Shown here: one piece after another, positions 1,625 to 19,776 of the stretch
Position numbering within the stretch: position 1 is the first letter of the stretch
Layout of the letters: every line of letters begins with the position of its first letter
Assembly (NCBI GenBank): GCA_030765685.1
Contig: JAVCCB010000009.1
Span: 1-41,634 of the forward strand
Reading direction: 5' to 3'
DNA length: 41,634 nt
Source of the DNA: Candidatus Tantalella remota
GTDB taxonomy: Bacteria; Omnitrophota; Gorgyraeia; Tantalellales; Tantalellaceae
Program-made: the position numbers and the translations under genes
Notes under the pieces: generated by a model
Told to the model about the DNA's origin: nothing
The model's database searches: none
What the model saw: the letters and a program-made list of their open reading frames with translations, nothing else

Positions 1625-2728
1625 ATGGAACACCTCACAGACCATATCGTTTCTTATCTGAACCTTCTCAGGTTCTATAAGGGGCTTTTTTCTATGCCCC
1701 GACTCATCCAGGCTGGTCTTGAAACGGTCTTTACGGGCGCGTCGTCTTTTCCTGTGACGATAGACATGATAATCACTAATCGGTGTAATCTGTCTTGTCC
1801 CATGTGTTATCGGAGGGGACCCCGCGGAGAGACTTCCAATGATGGAGAGGGCGAGTTGAGCCTGGAGGAGATCAAAAAGTTCATCTCGGAGGTCAAGGGA
1901 CACCGGCCTGTGATATGTCTGGGCGGCGGGGAACCTTTTATGAGGAAGGATCTCATAGACATAATAAAGGAGATAAAAAGCGCCGGATTAAAGTGCATAC
2001 TCTATACGAACGCTGTTCTTATGAACGAAGACCGCTCCCAACAGCTGCTGGATACCGGTGTTGACGCGGTGTTGGTGTCACTGTACGCGTGGGGAATAAA
2101 GCATGACAGCGTGGTAGGGGAAGAGGGCGCGTTTGAGAAGACTCGGGAGAACCTACGCGCTCTTGTGCGCAAACGGACAAAAGGGACAAAGATACTTGCG
2201 AGTACACTTCTCTTGCCGGACAATATAGATCAGATCCCGGAGATGATACGAGCCTTGCGGGAGGTGGGGGTAGACGGAGTAAAAATAGAGGGTTTGAGTT
2301 TTCTGACACGGGAAGAATATGAAAAGTCAGCGGAACATCCGGAAGGGATGGATATCAGCACGTCGACCCGCATGAGGGAAGAATATTTTTCAGAAGAATT
2401 CGCGGATACGGTGAAGGCATTATCCGCGGATATTCAAAGAGAATTCAGGGGATTTGCCATTTTTAAGCCGCATCTGGGCAGAGAAGAACTGGGCAGGTGG
2501 TATACGGAGGCTATTTCCCGCAATGCCGGGTGTTCTTTTATAAGACACTCGGCATTCATAGATCACCGAGGCAACGTATTGCCGTGCCAGTACTTTCCAA
2601 AGTGCGTTCTTGGGAATCTTAGAGAAAGCTCTTTTACCTCGATCTGGAACTCAAAGGAATACCGGAAAGCCCGTCGGTCGATAGCTGCCGCTGTTCCGCC
2701 CGTATGTTCGAGGTGCTGTAAGAATTAG
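1625..2728 (+). CDS. Radical SAM/SPASM-domain protein
   Basis: Radical SAM enzyme of the MoaA/PqqE/SPASM group. An N-terminal amphipathic stretch (residues 1-42) precedes the radical SAM core. The cluster motif is C54/C58/C61 (CNLSCPMC), followed by the glycine-rich GGGEP SAM-binding segment. The C-terminus carries a SPASM/twitch-like set of cysteines (NAGCSF, LPCQYF, KCVLGN, VCSRCC) expected to hold one or two auxiliary Fe-S clusters. The spacing LPCQ...GN...SIWNS is typical of SPASM proteins that act on peptides or on precursors in polysaccharide and cofactor loci. Upstream AGGG near 1611 may serve as ribosome binding site. It sits between a B12-type radical SAM gene and a YfhO-like membrane protein (25-base gap), consistent with one transcript. 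Substrate unknown; no precursor peptide is visible nearby. Confidence 0.88.
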   Translation: MEHLTDHIVSYLNLLRFYKGLFSMPRLIQAGLETVFTGASSFPVTIDMIITNRCNLSCPMCYRRGPRGETSNDGEGELSLEEIKKFISEVKGHRPVICLGGGEPFMRKDLIDIIKEIKSAGLKCILYTNAVLMNEDRSQQLLDTGVDAVLVSLYAWGIKHDSVVGEEGAFEKTRENLRALVRKRTKGTKILASTLLLPDNIDQIPEMIRALREVGVDGVKIEGLSFLTREEYEKSAEHPEGMDISTSTRMREEYFSEEFADTVKALSADIQREFRGFAIFKPHLGREELGRWYTEAISRNAGCSFIRHSAFIDHRGNVLPCQYFPKCVLGNLRESSFTSIWNSKEYRKARRSIAAAVPPVCSRCCKN

Positions 2729-2753: not shown

Positions 2754-4661
2754 GTGAAAAACAAAAGCGCATATGTAGTGGGGGTGATATTCCTGTTGAC
2801 CATAGTCTTCTGCGCGCCGTATATACTTCCATTTAACCGGATAGTGGTGGAAGAATCGTATCTTCAGCAATGTTCTTATCTTGACGTTAACCTTATTCCG
2901 ATTACGCAGAGCAAAGGCATCCCTTTCTGGTCATATCATTTTGGAGGAGGGTACCCGTTCATCAAGCACCCCGAGAATACGGTACTCAGTCCGCTTTTTT
3001 ATCTGTTGGTGCTGCCTTTCGGCAGCGCGAACGGGATGAAAGTAATGCTGCTTTTTTATTATATGATCGGCTGCGGAGGATTCTTTCTTTTTGCCAGGCG
3101 TATTTTGAAATTTGAACGTCCGGCGGCATCATTAAGCACCATATTCTTCGTTTTGAACAGTTTTGTTCCTTTTCAGGTCAATACGGGGAATACCAGGGAT
3201 CCCGGGTGGCTTTTTCTGCCGCTCGTGGCGTATTTGTTCCTCAGGGCCAGAGAGTCCGGGAAATACATAATATTCTGCGCGGGCATCACCACGCTTGTTC
3301 TTTTGAACGGATTTAACCTTTACATGGTCCCGCTTTTTCTGTTCCTCCTGGTGTTCTCTCTAATAAAAGACGCGGGGGCTCCGGAAGGAACGATGAAGGC
3401 GATGGCGCTGACCGGTAGGACATTTATTTTTCTAGGGGCATGCACGTTTCTCCTGGGGGCGATAAAAATATTTCCGCTTCTTGAGCTCTTAAGAGAAAAC
3501 GCTCGCGGAATAGATGATTATGCCATAGCATCTTCGGGAGCTATGACGGCGGGAAAGATGTTTCTGGCGTTCTTTTCCCGGGGTCCGTACGCGGTGGGCA
3601 ATGAGGCGGTAATGGGGGCTAACGGTCTGGGGATGGGGTCGGTAATGTATTTCGGCGTTATTCCCGCGATGTTCTTCGCGTTTTCATGTGTCTTCTGTTT
3701 TAAGAAAGTGTGGAAATATCTCGCGGCGATGGGAATTTTTCTTCTACTGGCCATGGCGAACAACAGTCCCGCGGACCTTTTTTATCCGCTATGGCATTTG
3801 CCGCTGTTCCATTCGATGAGAGAGGTAGCCCGGTATTTTTCGTTCCCTGCTGTTTTCATGGCCGCGCTTATCATGGGAGCGAGCCTTTCTTCCGAAATGT
3901 TCAGGCGGCTTAATAAAAAATTGAGAATAGCGATATATATCATCGCCGCGATAGCCGCGGTGAATATGTTCGCGGCGAATACCCAATATTTCAGATTCGC
4001 GGGAAGGTATCAGGAAGAGATCCCCGCACTAACGGGGGAAGGGGATTTTTTTAACGTGAGCGGAGTGCTTTTGAACAATATCGAGCAGGCTCCTTTTTAC
4101 CGAAAGAACCGGGCATGGACGGGTAAATATGCCGTCGAGCTCGGACCGGGGCTGCAATATTATCTTTTAAGACAGAATGTGGGCCTTATTAACTGGTTTG
4201 GTAACATACCACTGGATGAAAACGCGGCGCCGAAATACGGGGTCACGATCGGTTACGGAGATTACTGGAAAGATCTCAGGTCTGATATCACCAGAAGTAA
4301 CGGTATCGCTGCCAACAGGGGGTACAAAGGAGAAGGTTATTTTGAAAAGGACAGCAGCAATAAGGTGAAGAGTATGGAATGGTCAAGTAACCGGATCATA
4401 GTCGATGTTGAACAGGCGCAACCGGATAACCTGATAATAAACCAGAACTACGATAAAGAATGGGGTTCCCCCAACGGCAGGGTATATGACGCGGGGGGTC
4501 TGCTCGGCCTGGAGTTGAGTGGGGCCGGAACAGAAAAAGTAGAACTTATCTATCGACCCGGCGCGCTGTACGCGGGCGCGGCAGTGAGTTTAATAACACT
4601 ATTGGCTGCCATTATGTTCCTGATGATCCCGTGGATGAAGAGAAAAAAGGGGAGAGAGTAG
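2754..4661 (+). CDS. YfhO-like polytopic membrane protein
   Basis: Large integral membrane protein of 635 residues resembling the YfhO / GT-C glycosyltransferase superfamily. The N-terminus has one membrane segment (about 7-27) and an extracytoplasmic loop with acidic residues (VVEES, SYLDVN) and the FWSYHFGGGYP segment typical of YfhO-like proteins. Roughly ten more hydrophobic segments follow to about residue 415, then a soluble C-terminal domain (about 420-600) and a last membrane helix (about 605-625) before a basic tail. Start is GTG at 2754 with GGGAG at 2744-2748. YfhO-like proteins are linked to glycosylation of teichoic acids or other envelope polymers, probably using lipid-linked sugars; that role here is inference. 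It ends 26 bases from the convergent PP-loop/desulfurase gene. Confidence 0.75.
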   Translation: MKNKSAYVVGVIFLLTIVFCAPYILPFNRIVVEESYLQQCSYLDVNLIPITQSKGIPFWSYHFGGGYPFIKHPENTVLSPLFYLLVLPFGSANGMKVMLLFYYMIGCGGFFLFARRILKFERPAASLSTIFFVLNSFVPFQVNTGNTRDPGWLFLPLVAYLFLRARESGKYIIFCAGITTLVLLNGFNLYMVPLFLFLLVFSLIKDAGAPEGTMKAMALTGRTFIFLGACTFLLGAIKIFPLLELLRENARGIDDYAIASSGAMTAGKMFLAFFSRGPYAVGNEAVMGANGLGMGSVMYFGVIPAMFFAFSCVFCFKKVWKYLAAMGIFLLLAMANNSPADLFYPLWHLPLFHSMREVARYFSFPAVFMAALIMGASLSSEMFRRLNKKLRIAIYIIAAIAAVNMFAANTQYFRFAGRYQEEIPALTGEGDFFNVSGVLLNNIEQAPFYRKNRAWTGKYAVELGPGLQYYLLRQNVGLINWFGNIPLDENAAPKYGVTIGYGDYWKDLRSDITRSNGIAANRGYKGEGYFEKDSSNKVKSMEWSSNRIIVDVEQAQPDNLIINQNYDKEWGSPNGRVYDAGGLLGLELSGAGTEKVELIYRPGALYAGAAVSLITLLAAIMFLMIPWMKRKKGRE

Positions 4662-4687: not shown

Positions 4688-6625
4688 TCAGGTCGCCTTG
4701 CGTAGCTCGCCGACGATCTTCACAAGGGTTTCCAGCAGTATATCCAGTTCTTCACGCGTGGTCCATTTGCTGATGCTTATGCGGATCGCCTGCATAGCTT
4801 CTTCTGACGAGAGCCCGGTTGCCATCAACACCTTGCTGGGGGTCACGACACGCGAAGAGCATGCGGCACCGGTTGAGACATATATGCCCCGGTCATTCAG
4901 CCTGGACGCGATCATCTTCCCGGAAACCCCGGAAAAATTTATATTTATATTGTTGCACAGCCTGTTTTTCGCGGGGCCGCTAAGGACTGTGTCGGGGATC
5001 AAACCCAGTATATTTTCGATACAGTAGTCACGCAGCTCTGTCATTTTCTTCAAGTATTCCTCATAAAATATTTCAGACGCTTTGCCGAACCCCACGATCG
5101 CGTTTGTGTTATGGGTACCTGAGCGCAGGAGGTTCTCTTGCCCGCCGCCGTGGAGGAGGGGCTCTATCCCGATGCCCTGCCTTACAAAGAGAGCGCCCGC
5201 TCCGCGCGGTCCGTGTATCTTATGAGCGTTCAGTGTGACGAGGTCAAGGTTCTGTTTCTTGACGTCAAGCGGCGTTTTTAGAAAACTCTGGCATGCGTCG
5301 GTGTGAAAAAAAACATTTTTTTTGCGGCAGATAGCCCCGATCTCCTTTATGGGTTCGATGGAGCCGATCTCATTGTTCGCGTGCATGACCGAGACCAGAA
5401 TGGTGGCCGGGCGGATGGCTTTTTCTACGTCCCGGGGATCGATCAAACCCTCCGTGCTGACGGGCAGATATGTTACTTCGAAACCACGTTTTTCCAGCCA
5501 GTCGAAGACGTTCAAAACGCTGGGGTGTTCTATCCGGGAGGCGATAAAATGCGGACGACTTCTGTCGTTGGCAAAAGCCAGCCCTTTTATGGCCAGGTTG
5601 TTTGCTTCCGTTCCGGAAGAAGTAAAATATATTTCTTCAGGGGCCGCGTTTATCTTCTGTGCTATTGTCACGCGTGCTTTCTCGACAGCAGCCTCGGACT
5701 TGAGGCCGAGCCGGTGCACGGAAGAGGGGTTGCCGATGTTGGTATCCTGGGAAAGTCGGACCGCTTTTATGACTTCCGGATCCGGTTCTGTGGTAGACGC
5801 GTTATCCAGGTAGATATTGTGTTTAGGGGCCGCGGAAGCCGCGGATGGGACCATTGCCCGCTTCTTAGGGTCCTGGGCATATACCTTGTCGGTCACATAG
5901 TTAAGGTAACCATGTTTCAGATAACAGCAACCCGGCTCTTCCTTGAATGCTAATTTTAGAGGCAGACGTATAGCGTTAAAGAACACGCTGACAACACAGG
6001 AGGGCTGGGTGCTGCGGTACTGACTTAGAAAGCCTTTTCCCAGATCTATTCCCATGCTCCTCAAATATTTCGCGCGGTCTTCAGTAGATTTTTTGTACAA
6101 GCTCAGGTGACTGAGAAGAGAAAGCGGGGTACTTTCGGATACGACGATCCCTTTTTCATAGTAGGAAGGGGTGATGATATCCAGTCCTGAAGATTTGTAT
6201 ATTTCGCTTAGCAGGTCTTTGACGTCTTTATGCTGCTCAAGAGCGTGTACGTCGTAATAATTGCTCCCGTCGAGAACGTATTGGATATTGTGTTTCTTGC
6301 AATAATCGATAGTATATAAGTGCATGGCGACTTTGCAGCCCATGCACCAAGAGTAAAAGAACTTATATTTAAGATTGTCTATCAGGCACTGGAAGAAGTT
6401 GCCCCGAACGGAATAGGCAAAATCGCGGATATCTATGATGTTGTGGGTGATCTTGTCGCCGTACAGGCGCACAAGCTGTTTGGCGCTTTTTTCAGACGCC
6501 GAAACGCGGGTCATCCCGGGTACTCTGTAAGTGTTGAGTATCAGCTTGTCAAAATCATCTATGCTTCTGACGACGATATAAGTAGAGTCAACGCCTCCGG
6601 AGAACAATACGACGCCTGTTTTCAC
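4688..6625 (-). CDS. PP-loop ATPase - cysteine desulfurase fusion
   Basis: Two enzymes in one chain (645 residues from the GTG at 6625). Residues 1-260 are a PP-loop ATP-pyrophosphatase: SGGVDST at 9-15, a CMGC pair at 94-97 and further cysteines at 210 and 233-234. Residues 270-645 are a complete NifS/IscS-type class V aminotransferase: LDNASTT, SSGTEANN, the PLP lysine in AHKIHGP (about K469), RSGTHN, and the persulfide cysteine in GAACSS (about C589). Desulfurases hand persulfide sulfur to PP-loop enzymes of the ThiI/MnmA/TtcA type, so a self-contained thiolation enzyme is the natural reading. The PP-loop half looks nearer to QueC/LarE/TtcA-like proteins than to MnmA. The GTG start has a strong AGGAAGG site and lies downstream of a good promoter; upstream ATGs at 6685 and 6664 are less likely. 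Target (tRNA, sugar or small molecule) unknown. Confidence 0.85.
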   Translation of the reverse strand: MKTGVVLFSGGVDSTYIVVRSIDDFDKLILNTYRVPGMTRVSASEKSAKQLVRLYGDKITHNIIDIRDFAYSVRGNFFQCLIDNLKYKFFYSWCMGCKVAMHLYTIDYCKKHNIQYVLDGSNYYDVHALEQHKDVKDLLSEIYKSSGLDIITPSYYEKGIVVSESTPLSLLSHLSLYKKSTEDRAKYLRSMGIDLGKGFLSQYRSTQPSCVVSVFFNAIRLPLKLAFKEEPGCCYLKHGYLNYVTDKVYAQDPKKRAMVPSAASAAPKHNIYLDNASTTEPDPEVIKAVRLSQDTNIGNPSSVHRLGLKSEAAVEKARVTIAQKINAAPEEIYFTSSGTEANNLAIKGLAFANDRSRPHFIASRIEHPSVLNVFDWLEKRGFEVTYLPVSTEGLIDPRDVEKAIRPATILVSVMHANNEIGSIEPIKEIGAICRKKNVFFHTDACQSFLKTPLDVKKQNLDLVTLNAHKIHGPRGAGALFVRQGIGIEPLLHGGGQENLLRSGTHNTNAIVGFGKASEIFYEEYLKKMTELRDYCIENILGLIPDTVLSGPAKNRLCNNININFSGVSGKMIASRLNDRGIYVSTGAACSSRVVTPSKVLMATGLSSEEAMQAIRISISKWTTREELDILLETLVKIVGELRKAT

Positions 6626-6689
6626 GGGTCTTTCCTTCCTGGTTACGGTACTGTTGCGGGTCATGCGGCTGTGCCACACAAACAAGTCT

Positions 6690-6818: not shown

Positions 6819-8741
6819 ATGTGCGGTATAGCAGGCATTATAGCTCTTGATTCCAGACTCTCGCCATCTGACGTGGCTGAGGGGAAAGGGATGACCGACA
6901 TCCTCAGACATCGAGGCCCCGACCACACCGGCTATTTTGACGATGAAAGTTGTTTTCTGGGCAATACCCGCCTGAAAATAATAGATCTTTCCGATAACGG
7001 AAATCTTCCCATGTCCAACGAGGCCGGCACCGTATGGATCACCTACAACGGCGAGGTCACCAACTTCCAGGAATTGAAGGAAGAATTCCGGCTAGACCAA
7101 AAATATAAATTCCATTCCACAACGGACACTGAAGTGGTGCTGCACCTTTATGAGGAGCTTGGCATCAAGTTTCTGGACCACCTTGCCGGCATGTTCGCTT
7201 TCACCATATATGACAAAAGAAACCACAGGGCATATATCGTGAGGGACAATTACGGGATACGGCCCGTCTTCTACATGAAGAAAAATGACCGGCTTTATTT
7301 CGCGTCGGAAATAAAATCTTTTCTGGACCTAAGAAGATTTAATAACAAAATAGACCGCAAGGCAATGTATGATTATTTTTCACTGATCTATCTGCCGGGG
7401 CGCCACACGCCTTTTGAGGAGATCGCGGAACTGGACGGGGGACATCTGCTGGAAGTGGATCTTCATAGCGGAAAAGTGCGCCTGGAGGAGTATTACAGGG
7501 TCGACTATAAGGCGGACCAAAGCATGACCGAAAAAGAAGCCTGCGATGGGTTCTATGAGGTGATGCTGGATTCGATGAGGCGGAACATGATATCCGATGC
7601 CCCACTGGGGCTGACGCTGTCCGGGGGGATCGACACCAGTTCCATGTTGGCCCTTGCCAAGGAACTGGGCAGAAGCAGCGAGATACATACGTTTTCCATA
7701 AAGATGAAAGAGTCCAGTTTTGATGAATCGCAGTATCAGAGCATAATGGTCGATCACGCGAAGCCCATACATCACGAGATAACAGTCGGCCCGGAAGATG
7801 TTGTAGACAGCCTCGTTACACAGATGGCCTATATGGATGAGCCAAGCGGGAACGGAGCGGTCATACCCAGCTATCTACTCGCGAAGGAGGCAAAGAAATA
7901 TGTAAAAGTTCTTTTGTCGGGGGAGGGCGGAGACGAGATCTCAAATGCTTACGATACGCATCTCGCTCACAAGATACAGAAGATGTATACGAAATATCTG
8001 CCGGCCCCGATGAGAAAGCTTATTTATTCAGCGGCGCACAGTCTGCCCGTGTCGATGAAAAAACTGAGCGTTGATTTTCTCGCGAAAAGGTTTACCGAAG
8101 GGGTGGAGAAAGACGCGCCAAGGGCGCATATGTATTGGAGGCATGTTTTTTCCGAAAAGGAGAAGAAATTATTATTGCAGGCGCCATATACGGATTTCCG
8201 GTCTACTGATGATATTTTCGCGAACCTGTTTTACAGGATGGATTTTGAGGACAGCCTGGACAGGATATCATTTCTGGATCTGAAATATTTTTTTATATGT
8301 GATCTTATGGTGAAGAATGACCGTACTTTTATGGCAAATTCGGTAGAGGCCCGGTTCCCGTTCGTTGACAGGAAAGTGGTTGATTTTGTCACGACCATAC
8401 CTTCCCGGCACAGGATCAAAGGGTTTACGGCCAGATACTTTGAAAAGGAATCCATGAGACGTATCCTTCCGGAAAAGATATATAAACGAAAAAGCATGGG
8501 GCTCGAGATGCCGCATTCCTTATGGTTCTTTGAAGGGCTGGATAAGGCTATGGAAAAATATTTTACTAAAAAGAACATAGAAAAGGCGGAAATATTCAAC
8601 TACGGATATGTAAAACAGCTGTGGGAAGAACATAGGCAGAAGAAACGTGATAATGGCAGGGCACTGTGGAGTATCCTGAATTATCTCATATGGTTTGACC
8701 TGTTCGTATACAACAAGGATTATAAGAAGTATCTTACCTGA
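6819..8741 (+). CDS. asnB: Glutamine-hydrolysing asparagine synthetase
   Basis: Class II glutamine amidotransferase fused to an AsnB-type synthetase, 640 residues. The protein begins MCGIAG, giving Cys2 as the nucleophile after Met removal; RHRGPD (about 30-35) and YNGEVTN (about 74-80, usually YNGEIYN) complete the glutaminase site. The synthetase half has the PP-loop SGGIDTSS (about 268-275) and GEGGDE. The full protein would release ammonia from glutamine and transfer it to an AMP-activated carboxylate. Long AsnB homologues are common in exopolysaccharide and natural-product loci, where they amidate sugar acids or other carboxylates rather than only making asparagine. It heads a plus-strand run with two radical SAM genes and a TPR membrane protein, which favours a pathway-specific role. 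Plain asparagine synthesis remains possible. Confidence 0.88.
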   Translation: MCGIAGIIALDSRLSPSDVAEGKGMTDILRHRGPDHTGYFDDESCFLGNTRLKIIDLSDNGNLPMSNEAGTVWITYNGEVTNFQELKEEFRLDQKYKFHSTTDTEVVLHLYEELGIKFLDHLAGMFAFTIYDKRNHRAYIVRDNYGIRPVFYMKKNDRLYFASEIKSFLDLRRFNNKIDRKAMYDYFSLIYLPGRHTPFEEIAELDGGHLLEVDLHSGKVRLEEYYRVDYKADQSMTEKEACDGFYEVMLDSMRRNMISDAPLGLTLSGGIDTSSMLALAKELGRSSEIHTFSIKMKESSFDESQYQSIMVDHAKPIHHEITVGPEDVVDSLVTQMAYMDEPSGNGAVIPSYLLAKEAKKYVKVLLSGEGGDEISNAYDTHLAHKIQKMYTKYLPAPMRKLIYSAAHSLPVSMKKLSVDFLAKRFTEGVEKDAPRAHMYWRHVFSEKEKKLLLQAPYTDFRSTDDIFANLFYRMDFEDSLDRISFLDLKYFFICDLMVKNDRTFMANSVEARFPFVDRKVVDFVTTIPSRHRIKGFTARYFEKESMRRILPEKIYKRKSMGLEMPHSLWFFEGLDKAMEKYFTKKNIEKAEIFNYGYVKQLWEEHRQKKRDNGRALWSILNYLIWFDLFVYNKDYKKYLT

Positions 8742-8758: not shown

Positions 8759-9748
8759 CTGAATATAAAAAAGATACAGAACCTTCCCAATACCGGTCTC
8801 GGAAAGATCCTGGATCCCGTCAGGTGGTTTAACGGGTACGCGCTTTTGCCGCCGTTATACCTGGAACTTGCCATAACTTACAGGTGTGATCTTGACTGCG
8901 GGTATTGTTATCAGGATCAGGGTCGCAGAACATCATATCCGGACATGACGCTGGAGGATGTAAAAGTCCTGGCTTCTAACCTGAAAAATTCATTCCTGAT
9001 AAAGCCCAGAATATATGTTTTTGGCGGCGAACCGACAATAAACCCTGAGTTTACGGAGATACTGGAGTTTCTATCGGAACAGGGATACAAATTCTTTTTT
9101 GCCACCAACGGTATCACCTTCAGGAAACACGCGGAAAAAGTCATGTCTCTTCGGGGGCTTGAGAACGTTATCATATCTCTCAATCCCGGGAATGTCTCCA
9201 AGATAGAAGGGCTTATCGCGGAGGTCGACTCCTGCAAAAAGAAAAATGGACCGGTAATATCGGTAAACTGTCCTGTGGATATTGTTCAGGAGACCGGAGT
9301 AGAGCTGTTCCACCTGGCGCGAAGAATAGAGAAGACCCCCGCGAAATATCTGACGTTCCAGCATTCCCAGTCAATCTTTGAGGACAGTCGCCGGGGGCGC
9401 GCGGAGGACATCATATCTGGGATAAGAAAAGTAAGGGACACCAGCTATAAGATACCGGTTTTTTTCTTTCCGGATATAAAGGAAAAATGTCTCCAAGCCT
9501 ATTATTTGGATCCGGATTTTCCCGGGCAAAAAAAGAAATGCCTGTTGCCATGGTTCGATATTTTCATACGGCCCAACGGAGATGTGGTGCCATGCGATGA
9601 GGTGGACCACGTGGTGGGGAACATAAAGGATGAGAGCTTACGGGATATCTGGAATAACGGTATTTACCGGGAGTTCAGGAAAGGCATACAACAGGACGGG
9701 GTTTCTTTCCCCATATGCCGGAGATGCTGCCACCGGCAGTACTGCTGA
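8759..9748 (+). CDS. Radical SAM/SPASM-domain protein, probable CTG start
   Basis: Second SPASM-type radical SAM protein. The core motif is CDLDCGYC, followed by FGGEPT for SAM binding. The C-terminus has SPASM-like cysteines (KCLLPW, VPCDEV, ICRRCC, RQYC) with the GNI...LRDIWNN spacing typical of auxiliary-cluster domains. The only standard start giving this frame is TTG at 8846, which would leave just 11 residues before the motif. Reading upstream, the frame stays open through a plausible 29-residue N-terminus to a CTG at 8759, placed eight bases after GGAGAGG (8744-8750). I therefore prefer CTG 8759 (329 residues), though the start is uncertain. It follows asnB by 17 bases and precedes a B12-type radical SAM gene by 5 bases, so the genes are almost certainly cotranscribed. 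Substrate unknown. Confidence 0.82.
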   Translation: MNIKKIQNLPNTGLGKILDPVRWFNGYALLPPLYLELAITYRCDLDCGYCYQDQGRRTSYPDMTLEDVKVLASNLKNSFLIKPRIYVFGGEPTINPEFTEILEFLSEQGYKFFFATNGITFRKHAEKVMSLRGLENVIISLNPGNVSKIEGLIAEVDSCKKKNGPVISVNCPVDIVQETGVELFHLARRIEKTPAKYLTFQHSQSIFEDSRRGRAEDIISGIRKVRDTSYKIPVFFFPDIKEKCLQAYYLDPDFPGQKKKCLLPWFDIFIRPNGDVVPCDEVDHVVGNIKDESLRDIWNNGIYREFRKGIQQDGVSFPICRRCCHRQYC

Positions 9749-9753
9749 GAAAC

Positions 9754-11202
9754 ATGGAACACAAACTAAAAATTCTTTTTCAGGAGCCTTTCGTCCCGAA
9801 AAATATCACCTACGGGATGTTCGCCGCAGGCGCCGGGAATAACACCTTTCCGTTCGGGGTGGCCAGCATCGCCGCCTATATCGCTCAACGGGGATATGAT
9901 CCGGAATATCTTGATCCGCAGATCGAAGGCATGTCAGAAGAAAAGTATATCGAATATCTTAAACAAAACACCCCGGATGTGGTAGCGATGGGTTCAACTA
10001 CTCCGCAGATAAAATATACGATACAATGTTTTGAGCTCATCAAACGGTTTTTTCCGGATATCGTAACGGTATTGGGCGGGATACACGCTACCGAAACTCC
10101 GGAGGAGACATTGAACTCGACTGGTTCCATAGATTATATGGTTTTGGGAGAAGGGGAGAAGACATTTTACCAGTTGGCTGAGAAACTGAGTATGGGTCAA
10201 CTTCAGGAGATAGGCAGTCTGTCAGGGGTGGCTTTCAAGTCTTCAGGGCGGGTTATTGTTAACCCGTTCAATGAAGAAGACCGGTTGCCCGAGGAAGAGC
10301 TTCCTACGCCTCTTTTTGAGATCTTCCCCATGGATAAATATGTTGCCCAGGTAACATACGCTAAAACATTTCCGACATACGGTTTGCTGGCTTCCAGGGG
10401 GTGTCCGTACGACTGTGTTTTTTGCGATTCCCACGTGACTACAGGTAAAAAGACCCGGTATAAGCCGGTAGAGACTGTTATAGAAGAGATACGCGTCCTG
10501 AAGGATAAGTATGGCGCCAGAGGTATGATGTTTTTCGACGATACATTCACGGTTAACAGGCAGTGGGTAGAGGATTTTTGCGAGCAATATTCTGATTCCG
10601 GGATAGCTTTGCCGTGGGCATGCAACAGCCGTGTAGATACTTCTGATGCCGGATTGCTGAAGACCATGAAAGACGCGGGGTGCTGGTGCATCCTTTTCGG
10701 TGTGGAATCCGCTAATCAGAAATCCCTGGATATGCTGAAGAAAGGGACTACCGTCAGGCAGAACGAGAAAACATTGCGCGTGGCACTTGAGTTGGGATAT
10801 TATGTGTACACGAGCTATATTCTCGGCCTTCCGGGGGAAGACGAGGAAGACGTGTGTAATACCATAAGATTTGCCAAACGGATAGGGAACCAGCTTTCAC
10901 TCTTTTTTCTTCCCGTTCCGATGCCCGGGACCGAGCTGCAGAAAATAGCGAAGGCAGACGGGGGGCTGAGGGAAGACGCGAAATATGAAGATTATAACCA
11001 GTTCGACTTCGCGGATCCCGTATATGTTAATCCCCTGCTGGGCAGGGAAAAAATGAAGGGTCTTCTAAAAAAAGCCTTCATAGAATTTTACATGACGCCC
11101 GCGGTGATATTAAGGAACCTGAAAGAGCTTATATTGCTTAAGCAAAGCCCGTATAAATTCTGGCAGGGACTTAAAGGCGTGGCCGGCATAACAAAATTAT
11201 AA
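9754..11202 (+). CDS. Cobalamin-binding-type radical SAM protein
   Basis: B12-binding-domain radical SAM protein of about 482 residues. The Rossmann domain (about 1-150) has the typical LGGIHAT and LGEGEKTF segments. The cluster motif is GCPYDCVFC (CxxxCxxC), followed by FFDDTF and FGVESAN, which are characteristic of the BchE/HpnP-like family. A short alpha-helical tail (about 440-482) follows the barrel. The ATG at 9754 (MEHKLKILF) is preferred over an upstream ATG at 9715: it starts right at the first beta strand and lies 5 bases after the preceding stop, implying translational coupling. It is the third gene of the asnB run. The reaction could be methylation, a rearrangement or C-C bond chemistry; nothing in the sequence fixes the substrate. 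Confidence 0.87.
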   Translation: MEHKLKILFQEPFVPKNITYGMFAAGAGNNTFPFGVASIAAYIAQRGYDPEYLDPQIEGMSEEKYIEYLKQNTPDVVAMGSTTPQIKYTIQCFELIKRFFPDIVTVLGGIHATETPEETLNSTGSIDYMVLGEGEKTFYQLAEKLSMGQLQEIGSLSGVAFKSSGRVIVNPFNEEDRLPEEELPTPLFEIFPMDKYVAQVTYAKTFPTYGLLASRGCPYDCVFCDSHVTTGKKTRYKPVETVIEEIRVLKDKYGARGMMFFDDTFTVNRQWVEDFCEQYSDSGIALPWACNSRVDTSDAGLLKTMKDAGCWCILFGVESANQKSLDMLKKGTTVRQNEKTLRVALELGYYVYTSYILGLPGEDEEDVCNTIRFAKRIGNQLSLFFLPVPMPGTELQKIAKADGGLREDAKYEDYNQFDFADPVYVNPLLGREKMKGLLKKAFIEFYMTPAVILRNLKELILLKQSPYKFWQGLKGVAGITKL

Positions 11203-13699: not shown

Positions 13700-16246
13700 C
13701 TATTCACGTGATTCTTGATGCTGTTTTAGCGCTTCGAGATAAGCGGGGTTGGAAAACCCCAGAGCTTTTGCCCTGCCGGCGTATTCCGAGGCTTTTTCGT
13801 ACATCTCGCGGTCAAAATATAAAAGAGATATTGTATAATACGCGCGGGCGTGGCTCGGATCTATTTTTAGTATACGCTGGTATGTTTCCAGAGCCTTATC
13901 ATATTCCCCGGATTCATGGTAAATGGTCCCCAGAGTGAAAAGGACTGCCGTATTTTCAGGTTCTGTACGGAGTTTCTCCTTATATTGAGAAATGATATCC
14001 TGATATTGTTTGAACAACGCGTCATAAACAGGTTTGTTAGCGGGCTCCAGCGACGCTGCTTTTTTCATCGCGGATAAAGCTCCGATGAAGTTACCTCGGC
14101 TATTAAAAATATGGGCGATATTCACGTAGGCATTCGCGTTATCGGGATCAATTTCCACCACGTTCATGAACAGTTTCAGAGATTCTTCATTACGGCCACG
14201 CATCCCGTACAGGACACCCAGGTTGTTGTACGCGTCCGGATACGATGGGTCCTGTTCGATCGCTTTTTTATATGAAGAAATGGCTTTATCAATCTCACCC
14301 GTTTGCTGATAGCTTATGCCGAGGTTGACATAGTTTTTAGCGTTCGAGGGATCTAACTGTAGAGCCTTCTTGAACAATGTCAGTGATTCCATATTGTTGT
14401 TCATCTTGCCCGCGAGTATTCCCAGATCGGCGTAGGCAACCGCATTGTCTGGGTCGAGCTTTATAGCTTGCCTGAAAGCTTCCGCTGCTTCAGGGTAACT
14501 TTCCAGTGCCATGTAAGTTTTGCCGAGGTTAGTGTGTATTTCGGATGAATAGGGAGTGGCCAGCAGCTGGGTTTTGTGCAGCCGCAGGGCGTCCTCATAC
14601 CTGCCCAGCTTGTCATATATTATCGAAAGATTATCATAAGCCTTACCCCGGTAAGGATTGAGGGACATCGATTTTTCGTACAACTGAATAGCCCGGTCGG
14701 TCTGCCCGCTCACATAATAGGTATTAGCAAGGTTGATATATGAATCCATATTAGAGGGATTTATAAGCAAAGCTTTTTGAAAGTGGTCTCTCGCGGAGGG
14801 GAAGTCACCGGAGGTTCCGTAGATCACGCCGAGGTTATTCAGAGGGTTTTCGTATAACCGATTGAGTTCTATCGCCTTTTGAAACAGGGGTATCGCTTTT
14901 GGCACCTGTCCGGCATTGCTGTAAACGATACCAAGGTTATTATACGCCCTGGAAGAATGGGGAGACCGACGAATAACGTCTTCCCAGAAGACTTGAGGGT
15001 TTTTCCAGTCACGGTTACGGACAAAAGTAATCAAGCAGTACGGAACGAAGATAAGCAGGAATATCTCGACGGCCGCGAACTTTGCCACCTTTGCCGGCAT
15101 GTGCCGACCGCGCGTTGATAACAGGCGAATAATACCGAAAGCCAGTATCACGCAGAATCCAACGGAGGGAAGATAAAGGCGCTGTTCCGCGACAGGCCTG
15201 CCGTAGAGGAAAAGTATGTTGCTGACCGGCAATAAAGTCAGGAATATCCAGAAAATTGAAAATGAAAGAATGCGATACCGCCGGAAAGTCCATACACCCG
15301 CTGCCAGCAGTATCAGGATCAAAGCTGTGGACAGCAGGACAGACGGGTCGAGTGCGGAGTCAGGTGCTATAAAAAGACGCTCGGCTGACAGGTTGACGGG
15401 GAACGCAAGCAGCCGCAGGTAGCAACCGAGAGTTTTCGGGATCGCGAGGATGTTAGAGTAAAACCCTATCTCTGCGGTTTGGAGCGCCTCTTTTGTCACC
15501 AGCAGACCAAGCGCCGATATTTTAAAACAAAGAAAACCCGCCGTCATGGCAAAGAACGGGAGGGCCGCTGTTATTCCGGACTTGTAGTTGTCTCGCGGCA
15601 TAAAACAGAGCACGTACAATATCAGGATCAGGGGCAGTGGGAGGGCGCTTTGTTTGGAACCCAGGGCACAGACATACGCTACAAGAGAGAGTGGGTAAAA
15701 GATCCATAACGAACGGGTCTTCTTATGCCGGATAAAGACAACAAAACAAATGACTGCAAGAATAAAAAAGACTCCGCCAAGAAGGTCTGAACGGTTCTTT
15801 ACCCAGGTTACCGCTTCAACGTGAACAGGGTGCGCGGCAAAAAGCATGGCGGACAGTAACGGCAGTCGGCGAAGCTCTTTTTGCCCCATCGTTAAAAGGC
15901 ACATCAGGGCGTAGATCAAAAGCGTGCATGCCGTGTGAAGTATAAGGTTTGTTAAGTGGTATCCCTTGGGGTCGTTCTTCCAAAAGGCAAAATCTACAGA
16001 ATAAGAAGTCGCGACAAGAGGCCGGTATATTCCTTTTGTACGATAGGTGACATGGCGCCAATACTCTGGAGAAAAAAGGGACGGTATGTACCTTATGTTT
16101 TGAAGATATTGATCCTCAACTATCGCCTCTTTGTCGTCCCAGACGAAGGAATTCCCCAGGGTATTGGAAAAGATCGCCGCGCAGACCACAACAAGAAGGA
16201 AAAGGCAGACAATATGAAAGCGAGTATTTCCGTCAGTCTTTATCAT
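13700..16246 (-). CDS. TMTC-like membrane protein with long TPR array
   Basis: 848 residues. The N-terminal membrane domain (about 1-415) starts with a membrane helix followed by NSFVWDD, IYRPLV and GYHLTNL, then AAHPVHVEAVTW and a later GRPVAEQRLYLPS segment. This pattern is shared with the bacterial counterparts of eukaryotic TMTC proteins, which are GT-C O-mannosyltransferases with TPR tails; the paired Asp in the first outer loop is the expected catalytic position. The remainder (about 430-830) is roughly twelve TPR units, the longest array in the window. It overlaps the end of the upstream paralogue by 14 bases, with GGAG inside that gene's coding end as a possible ribosome site. Probable role: transfer of a sugar to a protein or envelope acceptor outside the cytoplasm. 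Specificity is not determinable. Confidence 0.82.
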   Translation of the reverse strand: MIKTDGNTRFHIVCLFLLVVVCAAIFSNTLGNSFVWDDKEAIVEDQYLQNIRYIPSLFSPEYWRHVTYRTKGIYRPLVATSYSVDFAFWKNDPKGYHLTNLILHTACTLLIYALMCLLTMGQKELRRLPLLSAMLFAAHPVHVEAVTWVKNRSDLLGGVFFILAVICFVVFIRHKKTRSLWIFYPLSLVAYVCALGSKQSALPLPLILILYVLCFMPRDNYKSGITAALPFFAMTAGFLCFKISALGLLVTKEALQTAEIGFYSNILAIPKTLGCYLRLLAFPVNLSAERLFIAPDSALDPSVLLSTALILILLAAGVWTFRRYRILSFSIFWIFLTLLPVSNILFLYGRPVAEQRLYLPSVGFCVILAFGIIRLLSTRGRHMPAKVAKFAAVEIFLLIFVPYCLITFVRNRDWKNPQVFWEDVIRRSPHSSRAYNNLGIVYSNAGQVPKAIPLFQKAIELNRLYENPLNNLGVIYGTSGDFPSARDHFQKALLINPSNMDSYINLANTYYVSGQTDRAIQLYEKSMSLNPYRGKAYDNLSIIYDKLGRYEDALRLHKTQLLATPYSSEIHTNLGKTYMALESYPEAAEAFRQAIKLDPDNAVAYADLGILAGKMNNNMESLTLFKKALQLDPSNAKNYVNLGISYQQTGEIDKAISSYKKAIEQDPSYPDAYNNLGVLYGMRGRNEESLKLFMNVVEIDPDNANAYVNIAHIFNSRGNFIGALSAMKKAASLEPANKPVYDALFKQYQDIISQYKEKLRTEPENTAVLFTLGTIYHESGEYDKALETYQRILKIDPSHARAYYTISLLYFDREMYEKASEYAGRAKALGFSNPAYLEALKQHQESRE

Positions 16247-18347
16247 CAGAGCTTTTCTCCGTTCTATAGGGGGCTAATAGTCTGAGATAGGCCGGATCCG
16301 ATCTTCCCAGCCCGGCGGCTTTGTCGTAGTAGTAGACGGCCTTAGCATAGTCCTTAAGGCGATAATACGTAACAGAAAGATCGAAATACGCGCCCGCGAA
16401 ACGGGGGTTGTTTTCAACGGAATCTTCAAGCAATTGTATCCTTTTATCGGTCATCCCGAGACGTTTGTATGTCATGCTCAGGTTCCCGTAAGCGGCTGTA
16501 TCATTCGGCGCGAGTTCTATAGTTTTTTTGTAAGCTTCCGCCGCGGCGGGAAAACTGTTTGATTCATAATATGCGTTACCGAGGTTGAAATAAGTGTCCG
16601 CCGCGGCGGGGTCTATTGTCAGAGACCTTTTGTACGCATTGATAGCAGCATTGTAATCTTTGCCGGCGCGATACGCGTTCCCGAGATTGTTGTAAGCGGA
16701 AGTATTCTCGGGGTCCAGCTCTATAGCCTTTGCATACTGGCCGAAAGCATTTTTCATAGCCCCTATCGCGGCATACGCTACCCCCAGGTTTACGCGGGTC
16801 CTCGCGTTGTCCGGATACCGAGCGACAGCCCGCCGCAGCACTTCGATAGATTCGGGGAACATGCGCATATCGTAGTATGTATTAGCCAGGTTATCGTACG
16901 CGGGATAGCCGTTCAGGGGGCGCGCATAAAGGCCTGCCGGGGTCTCATGAAGTTCGATAGCTTTTTTGTAAAACATAACGGCGCTTTCGGCATCTCCGGA
17001 TTGACGATAAGTATTAGCCAGGTTGTAGTTGGCCCTGGCAGAGCCGGGAGAGGAGGCTACCGTATCGGCCCATAAGGTCAATGGGTTTTTCCAGTTTTTG
17101 TTTCTCGAAACCGTCGTCAGGGAGAAGGACAGGAAAAGCCCCACGGCAAGAAAAGTGGACACGCTTTTAAATATTTTGCGGGAACCCTTAGAAGTGCCTG
17201 CCGCGCCAAGCTTGAGTATGCAGAGGCCCAATAATACGCAGTATCCGACGGAAGGAATGTAAAGGCGTTGTTCCGCGATCGGCCTGCCGGCAAGAAAAAT
17301 AATATTTGAGAACGGCAAAAGTGCCAGAAGGACCCATGAAAGTGAGAAAAAGAAGAGACGGTAACGCCGCCAGGACCATAGAGCAAATAGCACAAGGATG
17401 ATCGTTCCCGAAGACAGAAGAACGGCCGGTTCGCCGAAAGATGAGGGTATACTTATAAGGCGTTCAGCATTAAGAGTGAAAGGATATGCCAGCAAGTAAA
17501 GATAGTACCCAATGGTTTTAACTACCAGAAGAACATGGGAATATAACGGCAGCCCTGTTCCGACATCATCGTTGGGTACCAGCATTCCGAGGACGAATAT
17601 CTTGAACGCGAGAAAGAGCGCCGCAACTATCCAGAAAGGGGCGGTACGGGTCGCATTTTTCACAAGATCCTCCCGGGGAAGGAAACACGCGACATAAAGC
17701 AGAAGAATAAGCGGCAGGGTCACGGCTGTTTCCTTAGAGGCTAGCGAAAAGAGAAAGCATAAAAGACCGCCGACATAAAACCCGCTCCCCTTGATGGTAT
17801 TTTTCTTCCGCAGAGACGAGGCGAACAGTATAAAAGATGAGAGAAAGAAAAATGATGCCAGGAGATCTGTCCGGTTCTTTATCCAGGCGATAGATTCTAC
17901 GTGCACCGGATGAGACGCGAAAAGAACAGCAGAAAGAAATGCCAGCAGGATCAAGGGGGATCGTTTTTCTTTTGGCAGGGGATCTTTGCCGAGCGCTCCC
18001 GCCAGAAGAAGTACGAGTAGGTACACCAGAAGCACGTTGGCCGCATGCATCAACAAATTGGTGGCATGATACCCCGCAGGGGACAATCCCCATAAAGCAT
18101 GATCGATCGCGAAAGTAAGGGTGCTTACGGGGCGGTATTCTCCCGAGGCGCCCGAGGGAGGGGCTTTCCAGTAACTTACAGAAAATATCGCGGGTATGTT
18201 TTTAAGATCGTGCACAGAGGTGTCTCTTGCTATAAGGTCATGGTCATCCCAGACGAAGGAGTTCTGCAGGGTGTTCATGAAAAGCGCCGCCGTCAATAGC
18301 AGCAACAGGGCAATATTGATAATATGTTTTTTTCGAATATCATTCAT
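16233..18347 (-). CDS. TMTC-like membrane protein with TPR array
   Basis: Paralogue of the gene it overlaps downstream, about 704 residues from the ATG at 18347. After a membrane helix comes NSFVWDDHD, then EYRPVST, GYHATNLLMH, ASHPVHVESIAW and GRPIAEQRLYIPS, the same ordered landmarks as in the neighbour. About ten membrane segments lead to a TPR array of seven units (from about residue 440). The start at MNDIRKKH is preferred over an upstream ATG at 18407 because it sits immediately before the basic end of the first membrane helix and gives an 8-base overlap with the upstream radical SAM gene. The order radical SAM, TMTC-like, TMTC-like with overlapping ends indicates one translationally coupled minus-strand operon. 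Likely an envelope glycosyltransferase; acceptor unknown. Confidence 0.82.
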   Translation of the reverse strand: MNDIRKKHIINIALLLLLTAALFMNTLQNSFVWDDHDLIARDTSVHDLKNIPAIFSVSYWKAPPSGASGEYRPVSTLTFAIDHALWGLSPAGYHATNLLMHAANVLLVYLLVLLLAGALGKDPLPKEKRSPLILLAFLSAVLFASHPVHVESIAWIKNRTDLLASFFFLSSFILFASSLRKKNTIKGSGFYVGGLLCFLFSLASKETAVTLPLILLLYVACFLPREDLVKNATRTAPFWIVAALFLAFKIFVLGMLVPNDDVGTGLPLYSHVLLVVKTIGYYLYLLAYPFTLNAERLISIPSSFGEPAVLLSSGTIILVLFALWSWRRYRLFFFSLSWVLLALLPFSNIIFLAGRPIAEQRLYIPSVGYCVLLGLCILKLGAAGTSKGSRKIFKSVSTFLAVGLFLSFSLTTVSRNKNWKNPLTLWADTVASSPGSARANYNLANTYRQSGDAESAVMFYKKAIELHETPAGLYARPLNGYPAYDNLANTYYDMRMFPESIEVLRRAVARYPDNARTRVNLGVAYAAIGAMKNAFGQYAKAIELDPENTSAYNNLGNAYRAGKDYNAAINAYKRSLTIDPAAADTYFNLGNAYYESNSFPAAAEAYKKTIELAPNDTAAYGNLSMTYKRLGMTDKRIQLLEDSVENNPRFAGAYFDLSVTYYRLKDYAKAVYYYDKAAGLGRSDPAYLRLLAPYRTEKSSDDKD

Positions 18348-19776
18348 GATAAGCCACAAAATCATCATCTTTTGTAGATATTTTCTCTTGCCGGAAGACC
18401 ATGTCAATGAGACCCCTAAATTTTCTTTTAAACTCCGAGAAGGACCGGATATTCAGTGAGGATCTCCACAGAAATCCGGACCTGGTGTAAAAACTTAAAT
18501 ATGCCCATCGGGCTAAACGATCTATATCGGGATTAGAAAGATCCGTCCACGGACGCGGTAGCGACCGATCGGTCTCTTTACCCAAGACCCAGTCTTTCCA
18601 GTAATCCTTACCTGTTTCTCGTACCATCTGGTCCCACAAAGGGGTCAGTGGCTTAGCCAGACATTTAGAGAACTGTACATAATCAAGGTCCAGCTCTCTG
18701 GCAAACTTAACGGTTTTTTTTATGGTCTCTGTTGTTTCTCCAGGAGCGCCTATAAGGAAGAACCCTAGAGTCTTAATGCCCAAAGCTTTTGTCGAGGTCA
18801 CCGCATCCCGGATTTGTCCCAGCGTTATACCTTTGTTGATCCTGTCCAATATCTCCTGAGACCCGGATTCTATGCCGTAATATATTCTTCCGCAACCGGC
18901 ATCTTTCATCAGGCGCAGGAGATCCGTATCTATTCCTATTCTGGAGCGACAGGCCCAAAGGATGTCGAGTCCACGGTTCAATATCTCTTGGCATATATTC
19001 ATTGTCCGGTCTTTATCTATCGTGAAATCATAATCGAAGATATCTATTTCCCGGATACCGTATTTATGATAACATTCTTCCATCTCGTTCACCACGGTCA
19101 TTACGCTGCGGGGATTATATTCTGTTCCGCCGGCTTCACAAAAACTGCAGGTAAAAGGACAGCCCAGGCTGGTAACCATTACTGTAAAATTTTTGCGTTC
19201 TGTGGGAAATTCGGCGTAAAGGTGGTTTGGCAGAAGATTCCTGGCGGGGGAGGGGAACTTGTCGAAATCTACAGGATTAACAGGCGTAAGCTTTATCTGT
19301 CCGTTTTCTTTGTACGCCAGCCCGGGGACATCTTTAAAATGGCACGTGCCCTCGAGAGCAGAGAAGAGTCCGGGGATGGTCTCAAGAGCATGTTCGATGA
19401 CGCCGAAATCTATTTCAGGATGGATGAGGGATTCTTCGGGATATACGCGGAGATTATATCCACCCACGACCACGGGTACATCCAGTGCTTTTTTGAGATA
19501 TTTTATCCATTCCAGGGTTTCCGGGAACATATAAGTCGTCATGGTGAACCCGATGATGTCGGGATCGAACGCCCGTAGACGCTTGAGGGTTTCCTCTTTG
19601 GTAAGCTCCAGAGTTCTGGCGTCTACTATGGTAACGTCATGTCCGGCTTCGCGTGCGATAGCCGCGGTCCAGGCCAGCCCCATGGGAGGGAACATTCCGA
19701 AGTATTTTTGGACAATACGGATATTCTCTTCGTGGACCTTGTATTTGAAAGGATTAAAAACTCCCGCGAACCTCAT
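18340..19776 (-). CDS. Cobalamin-binding-type radical SAM protein
   Basis: 478-residue B12-domain radical SAM protein, first gene of a three-gene minus-strand operon. Residues 1-150 are the B12-binding Rossmann domain (VVVGGYN and a GVIEHA segment in place of the usual GEGE). The cluster motif GCPFTCSFC gives the CxxxCxxC triad near residue 205; FDYDFTID and YGIESGS follow as in BchE/HpnP-like proteins. A C-terminal region (about 390-478) rich in Trp and Arg is additional to the barrel. The start is supported by AGGAG nine bases upstream and by a good promoter (19825-19852). Being coupled to two TMTC-like membrane glycosyltransferases suggests that it modifies the lipid carrier, the sugar or the acceptor used by them. 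That is inference from context only. Confidence 0.87.
   Translation of the reverse strand: MRFAGVFNPFKYKVHEENIRIVQKYFGMFPPMGLAWTAAIAREAGHDVTIVDARTLELTKEETLKRLRAFDPDIIGFTMTTYMFPETLEWIKYLKKALDVPVVVGGYNLRVYPEESLIHPEIDFGVIEHALETIPGLFSALEGTCHFKDVPGLAYKENGQIKLTPVNPVDFDKFPSPARNLLPNHLYAEFPTERKNFTVMVTSLGCPFTCSFCEAGGTEYNPRSVMTVVNEMEECYHKYGIREIDIFDYDFTIDKDRTMNICQEILNRGLDILWACRSRIGIDTDLLRLMKDAGCGRIYYGIESGSQEILDRINKGITLGQIRDAVTSTKALGIKTLGFFLIGAPGETTETIKKTVKFARELDLDYVQFSKCLAKPLTPLWDQMVRETGKDYWKDWVLGKETDRSLPRPWTDLSNPDIDRLARWAYLSFYTRSGFLWRSSLNIRSFSEFKRKFRGLIDMVFRQEKISTKDDDFVAYHE

Follow-up and report, generated by a model that had tools for sequence, protein, structure and literature searches.

The 41,634-nucleotide contig JAVCCB010000009.1 of the Omnitrophota bacterium Candidatus Tantalella remota (the whole of which is called the window here) belongs to a metagenome-assembled genome (MAG; G000) of 2.0 Mb that is 94% complete. 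It carries a gene in which a PP-loop domain is joined to a cysteine desulfurase (Table 1), and we propose that its product would be a single-chain thiolase that takes sulfur from cysteine to a small molecule. The first-pass annotation of this DNA had described positions 4688-6625 as such a fusion without giving a strand. We found one unbroken frame there, on the minus strand; reading the interval on the plus strand was ruled out by many stops. The open frame spans 4688-6685 and its longest form has 665 residues. The GTG at 6625 is preceded by an AGGAAGG-like ribosome site of -6.5 kcal/mol, compared with -1.4 for the upstream TTG at 6685, and as the start codon it yields a product of 645 amino acids; an internal ATG at 5854, in the linker, has a weak ribosome site (-4.1). 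It is confirmed that a single continuous frame of 645 amino acids carries both domains with their motifs, and the SGGVDST and CMGC sequences that had been noticed in the N-terminal half map to residues 9-15 and 94-97. This half also contains the C233-C234 pair.

Table 1. Features of the fused gene and of the genes around it in the window.
Feature	Position	Strand	Basis
Fused gene, PP-loop sulfurtransferase domain plus cysteine desulfurase (predicted functions), 645 aa, GTG start	4688..6625	minus	stop-free frame, ribosome site, residue map
N-terminal YcfA/TgsB-like PP-loop domain, residues 1-254	5864..6625	minus	family profile, tree, fold match to YcfA
PP-loop motif SGGVDST, residues 9-15, predicted ATP binding	6581..6601	minus	S9, G10, G11 and D13 invariant (17/17)
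C94-M-G-C97, first two of three proposed cluster- or sulfur-carrying cysteines	6335..6346	minus	C94 16/17, C97 17/17
Q207-P-S-C210, third conserved cysteine	5996..6007	minus	Q207 and C210 17/17
Ala/Pro/Ser-rich linker, residues 255-270	5816..5863	minus	begins where unfused orthologue L022 ends (alignment)
C-terminal NifS/IscS-type cysteine desulfurase, residues 271-643	4697..5815	minus	Aminotran_5, TIGR03402, tree
K469, presumed pyridoxal phosphate (PLP) lysine, motif NAHK (H468-K469)	5219..5221	minus	placed by motif
C589, presumed catalytic persulfide cysteine, motif TGAACSSR	4859..4861	minus	placed by motif
B12-binding radical S-adenosylmethionine (SAM) gene	77-1561
Radical SAM-SPASM protein	1625..2728	plus
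Membrane protein, 635 aa, without Pfam family	2754..4661	plus
Asparagine-synthase-type amidotransferase; nearest model XrtA/PEP-CTERM amidotransferase, below cut-off	6819..8741	plus
Radical SAM-SPASM protein	8846..9748	plus
B12-binding radical SAM protein	9715..11202	plus
B12-binding radical SAM gene	18340-19776

The C-terminal half had been read as a complete NifS/IscS-type desulfurase with its PLP lysine and catalytic cysteine, and it proved to be one. Pfam Aminotran_5 matches it at 245.6 bits (cut-off 21.5; residues 291-650 of the 665-residue frame) and the NCBIfam NifS model TIGR03402 at 4e-127, the closest models being NifS, IscS and DndA, although its 424 bits do not reach the NifS equivalog cut-off of 530.75. 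The PLP role of K469 and the catalytic role of C589 are those we take over from the NifS/IscS family. The class-V fold and both of these residues are common to DndA, IscS and NifS, but the window domain stands apart from them in the desulfurase tree. Its closest counterparts among 384 Omnitrophota genomes were found in G066, G289, G018, G131, G278 and G116 (402-466 bits, 48-58% identity), and together with these six stand-alone desulfurases it forms one clade (support 98/99) that is separate from housekeeping IscS/NifS, Escherichia coli IscS, nif-cluster NifS and DndA; two TgsA proteins and one class-V protein (L032) were too distant to be included in the tree. All six related desulfurases adjoin a PP-loop gene of another type, WbuX-like with an SGGKDST motif (the two that were scanned reached 158 and 175 bits, below the cut-off of 203). 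Three of the six loci have a TusA-like gene between desulfurase and PP-loop gene (one Pfam-confirmed, two by eye), and a carbamoyltransferase-type gene is near four of them (one Pfam-confirmed, three by eye). Membership of this clade suggests that the window desulfurase is one of a group whose members act alongside PP-loop enzymes, and that it is here joined to a different PP-loop domain. The loci of desulfurases with WbuX-like PP-loop genes carrying SGGKDST and CxxC (L098, 5886-8266; L099, 824-3245; and L100-L103) look like a separate, undescribed sulfur-insertion system. PADLOC labelled the desulfurase half SspA/DndA, but DNA phosphorothioation was rejected: DndA lies elsewhere in the tree, and inspection by eye found no dnd gene among the long open reading frames (ORFs) of the window.

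The PP-loop half alone reached no Pfam or NCBIfam cut-off, its weak matches being to QueC and DUF7411. It scored 17 bits with the LarE model TIGR00268 (cut-off 150), 13-16 bits with the TtcA/TilS/TtuA-type model ATP_bind_3 (PF01171; cut-off 27) and 14-16 bits with the QueC model PF06508 (cut-off 22); the MnmA model was not among its NCBIfam matches, and Pfam found no additional RNA-binding domain in the fused protein. When the 384 Omnitrophota genomes were searched with the window domain and then with a 17-row profile (A1), a family of 19 matches in 17 genomes emerged. A1 omits two of the 19, the distant L074, which has CxxC and QxxC, and the partial L075, a fragment with CxxC (both judged by eye). 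Two of the 18 genomes from the first search, G205 and G233, were dropped because their proteins group with LarE in the tree. Identity of the A1 members with the window copy is mostly only 20-30%; S9, G10, G11, D13, T32, C97, Q207 and C210 are nonetheless invariant in all 17 and C94 is present in 16, the remaining row having Asp, while C80, C109, C233 and C234 vary. That conservation across such divergent members exceeds chance is confirmed at the level of the alignment, and the family thus has an SGGxDS motif, a CxxC and a distal cysteine (C94, C97 and C210). Of the later cysteines singled out by the first-pass annotation, C210 was borne out and the pair at 233-234 was not.

The fusion itself is confined to the window copy, whose frame has 671 codons against 168-318 in the other 18, the shortest being cut by a contig end. 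The unfused tri-cysteine proteins (239-318 residue frames where complete) consist of the same domain with the same three cysteines but no desulfurase. The closest of them, in L022, is 47% identical and ends where the window linker starts. On the same contig (L040, position 3086) ATA stands where the window has its GTG start, with no ATG, GTG or TTG there, and is preceded by a good-looking ribosome site that overlaps the upstream stop. In L074 (G066:C2, 7526-10950) two ORFs come after the tri-cysteine PP-loop protein, first a small one that is carrier-protein-like and then a long one that is ligase-like (by eye), a gene order that suggests an assembly-line setting. Single-sequence scans of genome contigs and viral contigs gave no relatives, and the one weak viral-contig match to A1 (L039) was set aside for its different cysteine pattern. 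With tblastn, the window domain had no match in phages or plasmids; a more central family member had none in phages but five among plasmids, and it was through these records that the tgs/ycf loci were reached.

The nearest CHARACTERISED kin of the family were sought in the PDB with its profile, and the best solved structure was 9kq6 (2e-28, far ahead of QueC at 1e-8). We identify 9kq6 as YcfA from the PDB entry titles, in which 9kq6, 9kq7, 9kq9 and 9kqd are Erwinia amylovora YcfA as apo form, with ATP, with GTP, and as D19A with both, and from a Vibrio plasmid on which the gene neighbouring a 9kq6 homologue matches 9kq4, 'YcfC'. In the same search YcfA scored 102 bits and QueC 38. Reciprocal profiles on 43 PP-loop proteins agreed: the family profile gave 106-117 bits to four YcfA/TgsB proteins and 101.6 to the distant family member L074, compared with at most 22.6 for LarE, MnmA, WbuX-like, GuaA, NadE, TilS-like and other PP-loop proteins (17-23 for Omnitrophota LarE, 10-11 for three MnmA proteins, no more than 11 for any MnmA, TilS-like or TtcA-like protein), and the YcfA/TgsB profile gave 42-101 bits to family members and at most 8 to other PP-loop proteins. 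In a tree of 37 rows (six of the 43 proteins, one WbuX-like, NadE, GuaA and three of ATP_bind_3 type, were left out) the family and YcfA/TgsB form one side of a branch with support 100/99. YcfA/TgsB make up a sub-clade of their own (100/99), and the window protein lies outside it in the wider branch. The sub-clade emerges from inside the family; the tree has some long rows and weak support for its inner order.

The fold points the same way. With a poor AlphaFold model built from two sequences (mean predicted local distance difference test score, pLDDT, 57; predicted template-modelling score, pTM, 0.61) the best 20 Foldseek rows were all Erwinia YcfA chains, and in a fold comparison YcfA led (Z 14.8; 3.8 A over 196 residues), followed by argininosuccinate synthase (Z 13.3) and by QueC and LarE (11-12); that other families are missing from the fold list was not counted as evidence. 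K98, H102, D119-G120 and Q131 are common to the window protein and YcfA/TgsB. Judged by these comparisons, the PP-loop half is a member of the wider YcfA/TgsB branch and not an MnmA, LarE, TtcA or QueC. The first-pass annotation was right that it does not resemble MnmA, but the TtcA- or LarE-like enzymes that it took as a model give way to YcfA/TgsB, and no tRNA thiolase with a tRNA-binding domain was matched in the profile search.

These relatives have a desulfurase partner too. On Staphylococcus plasmids the tgs loci contain, in order, genes for a class-V desulfurase, a PP-loop protein, a NUDIX protein, a DMT transporter, a second NUDIX protein and a HAD protein, the desulfurase gene immediately preceding the PP-loop gene; passages of PMC7994395 name the genes TgsA to TgsF, state that the operon makes 6-thioguanine and predict sulfur transfer from TgsA to TgsB. 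According to passages of PMC6225789, the 6-thioguanosine product is not formed without YcfC and YcfA, either in vivo or in vitro. For the window PP-loop domain the partner is present as well, fused in cis, so that it shares with YcfA (E. amylovora) and TgsB (Staphylococcus) both the branch and the desulfurase. In contrast to the window protein, however, YcfA/TgsB stand alone, have none of C94, C97 and C210, and lie beside genes for NUDIX proteins, a HAD phosphatase and an EamA exporter, none of which adjoins the fused gene. A Vibrio coralliilyticus plasmid (L084, CP020455.1, 9004-12753) has, consecutively, a YcfA homologue (8e-92 to 9kq6), a NUDIX-HAD protein, a YcfC homologue and an EamA exporter, a row annotated as hypothetical that is likely to be a 6-thioguanine operon. 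An Alicyclobacillus acidoterrestris plasmid (L083, NZ_CP080468.1, 9001-11711) has a TgsB-like gene 69.5% identical to that of Staphylococcus epidermidis, with NUDIX, DMT transporter and HAD genes and no desulfurase gene adjoining it.

The fused gene had been placed among radical SAM and amidotransferase genes, and the window indeed has five radical SAM genes in all and one asparagine-synthase-type amidotransferase gene. A radical SAM homologue lies within 8 kb of the PP-loop gene in 14 of 17 family members, in nine of them within 500 bases, compared with none of 75 control ORFs from nine other Omnitrophota loci that were not drawn at random. The orthologues are therefore not scattered among unrelated contexts: most of them keep the radical SAM neighbours, but not the fusion (1 of 19). 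An orthologue of the membrane protein adjoins the PP-loop gene in L022 (47% identical) and a 28-29% identical homologue is near that in L028; amidotransferase homologues are found at both, so that the pair recurs with the PP-loop gene in three of 17 members, the window included. One radical SAM gene is also common to L022 and the window. Pfam-confirmed carbamoyltransferase genes are near the PP-loop genes of L024, L028 and L029, a NifU-type scaffold gene abuts the unfused PP-loop gene in L026, and a class-V desulfurase-like gene with HK and Cys motifs lies 381 bases from that in L032. Small hydrophobic ORFs with CC or C near the start and no meaningful Pfam family directly follow the PP-loop gene in L024 (3038-3289), L029 (9031-9333) and L026 (1735-1977), possibly encoding a partner protein. 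Near the radical SAM genes of the window, 13700-18407 and 22040-23887 encode three large proteins (two minus, one plus) that are similar in kind, each having a hydrophobic N-terminal half and TPR-like repeats towards the C-terminus.

In PP-loop sulfurtransferases a carbonyl is first adenylated, and AMP is then displaced by a sulfur nucleophile; those with a CxxC-C motif bind a [4Fe-4S] cluster through three cysteines. In sequence, C94, C97 and C210 form such a CxxC-C pattern. Thermotoga maritima LarE holds its [4Fe-4S] cluster by CXXC-C and receives its sulfur from IscS, and an extra sulfide is thought to sit on the fourth iron, according to passages of PMC9283937. Because a single chain combines the motif for ATP, the three cysteines and an entire desulfurase, we read the protein as a putative cysteine-to-substrate thiolase. 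The NifS-type half would take sulfur from L-cysteine and keep it as a persulfide on C589; the YcfA/TgsB-like half would bind ATP and adenylate a small-molecule carbonyl (a lactam or amide oxygen). The PP-loop domain would then receive the sulfur of C589, the most likely acceptor being the open iron of a [4Fe-4S] cluster on C94, C97 and C210, and AMP would be displaced with formation of a thiocarbonyl. The fusion would stand in for a two-gene pairing such as TgsA-TgsB or the Omnitrophota desulfurase-PP-loop pairs. This sulfur flow, the cluster and the small-molecule substrate are inferred from the sequence. A nucleotide is our first guess at the substrate, since the structure of YcfA was solved with GTP; our second is an intermediate from the radical SAM/amidotransferase cluster around the gene. 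The suggestion that the enzyme would thiolate a small molecule rather than tRNA is supported, because its closest kin, YcfA/TgsB, act on a purine and not on tRNA and because MnmA (338 bits), LarE (342 bits; both over cut-off) and a stand-alone desulfurase are encoded separately in the genome.

We give the scheme above, in which one chain with a probable [4Fe-4S] cluster thiolates a small molecule, a probability of roughly 0.58, and several findings weigh against it. The fusion is known from a single MAG, one of the 384 genomes searched, and with 18 of 19 members unfused the family must be able to function without it. By the YcfA/TgsB profile no family member is more distant than the window copy (41.7 bits), and the pLDDT of the AlphaFold model is below 50 from residue 197 on, including the surroundings of C210. 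YcfA/TgsB are without the three cysteines, having Val or Leu at C94, Asp or Glu at C97 and no counterpart of C210, so that the case for a cluster is made by analogy with other PP-loop families. Within 8 kb of the 17 members no homologue of the NUDIX, HAD and EamA genes of the S. epidermidis tgs operon was found, and the fused gene is transcribed opposite to its neighbours, which makes its operon membership only putative. It is possible, though unlikely, that the single chain works without an iron-sulfur (Fe-S) cluster and that sulfur travels on C94, C97 and C210 in persulfide or disulfide form, following the classical MnmA and ThiI schemes. YcfA/TgsB do insert sulfur with their altered residues, and the cluster requirement of E. 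coli MnmA is disputed, according to passages of PMC11784392. The near-invariant CxxC-C spacing, however, fits the cluster pattern of T. maritima LarE better than a persulfide relay of one or two cysteines, and the NifU-type scaffold gene beside one family member also speaks for a cluster.

A tRNA thiolase of unusual make-up is very improbable. Pairs of PP-loop protein and desulfurase are typical of tRNA thiolation, and NifS-NifU-MnmA and desulfurase-ThiI neighbours were observed, but the genome is already provided with MnmA and with TilS- and TtcA-like genes (names assigned from reading the sequences), proteins of these three kinds are those that barely registered with the family profile, and the fused protein is without an added RNA-binding domain by Pfam. 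We also attach very little weight to an assembly or sequencing error that merged two adjacent genes by a lost stop or a frameshift. The evidence comes from a single contig of a single MAG, and the closest orthologue, L022, ends exactly at the start of the linker; against this, 645 codons run without a stop and the linker has the Ala/Pro/Ser-rich make-up of true fusions. Moreover, five of six stand-alone desulfurase relatives begin with Met two residues before IYLDN, whereas the fusion has no start codon at that spot, the nearest ATG being 17 codons upstream with a weak ribosome site, so a mere lost stop is insufficient as an explanation. There remains a slight chance that the PP-loop domain installs nitrogen, as amide, amidine or nitrile in the manner of QueC or WbuX, while the desulfurase merely builds an Fe-S cluster. 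The weak family-model matches named above would fit this, as would the WbuX-type proteins that adjoin the related desulfurases, but QueC fell far behind YcfA in the PDB profile search and the closest kin insert sulfur.

Known systems share parts of this arrangement with the predicted single-chain thiolase. T. maritima LarE has SGGxDS, CxxC-C and a cysteine desulfurase as sulfur supplier, as the window protein does, but is of a different sequence branch and its sulfur donor is a separate protein. MnmA-YrvO of Bacillus subtilis likewise couples a PP-loop thiolase to a dedicated desulfurase, and a man-made MnmA-YrvO fusion complemented the loss of MnmA in Plasmodium, according to passages of PMC10219651; it differs from the window protein in its tRNA substrate, in the artificial nature of the fusion and in a PP-loop half that is not close. 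In the openly licensed literature that we searched we found neither a natural single chain of PP-loop domain and desulfurase nor YcfA relatives with CxxC-C and, in a literature listing, no sulfur metabolites from Omnitrophota. Domain, chemistry and partner are each of a known kind, while their combination and the Omnitrophota family are not described in that literature.

It is conceivable, though we hold it with some doubt, that the Omnitrophota family represents the iron-sulfur type ancestral to the 6-thioguanine synthases and that its products in radical SAM clusters are thio-metabolites not yet described, such as thio-nucleotides or thiolated intermediates of cell-surface molecules or peptides. 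The fusion would then be the first natural enzyme to make a thiolated small molecule from cysteine in a single chain. Sulfur insertion into 6-thioguanine is carried out by an enzyme that has no CxxC-C motif and whose origin has been unclear. A CxxC-C family with YcfA/TgsB branching inside it suggests descent from an iron-sulfur sulfurtransferase, and the cysteine loss in YcfA/TgsB would parallel the losses in MnmA and LarE. The natural fusion offers a ready one-protein test of direct sulfur transfer from desulfurase to PP-loop domain. Like the separate loci of desulfurase, TusA and PP-loop genes, the PP-loop family hints at as yet unknown sulfur metabolites in Omnitrophota.

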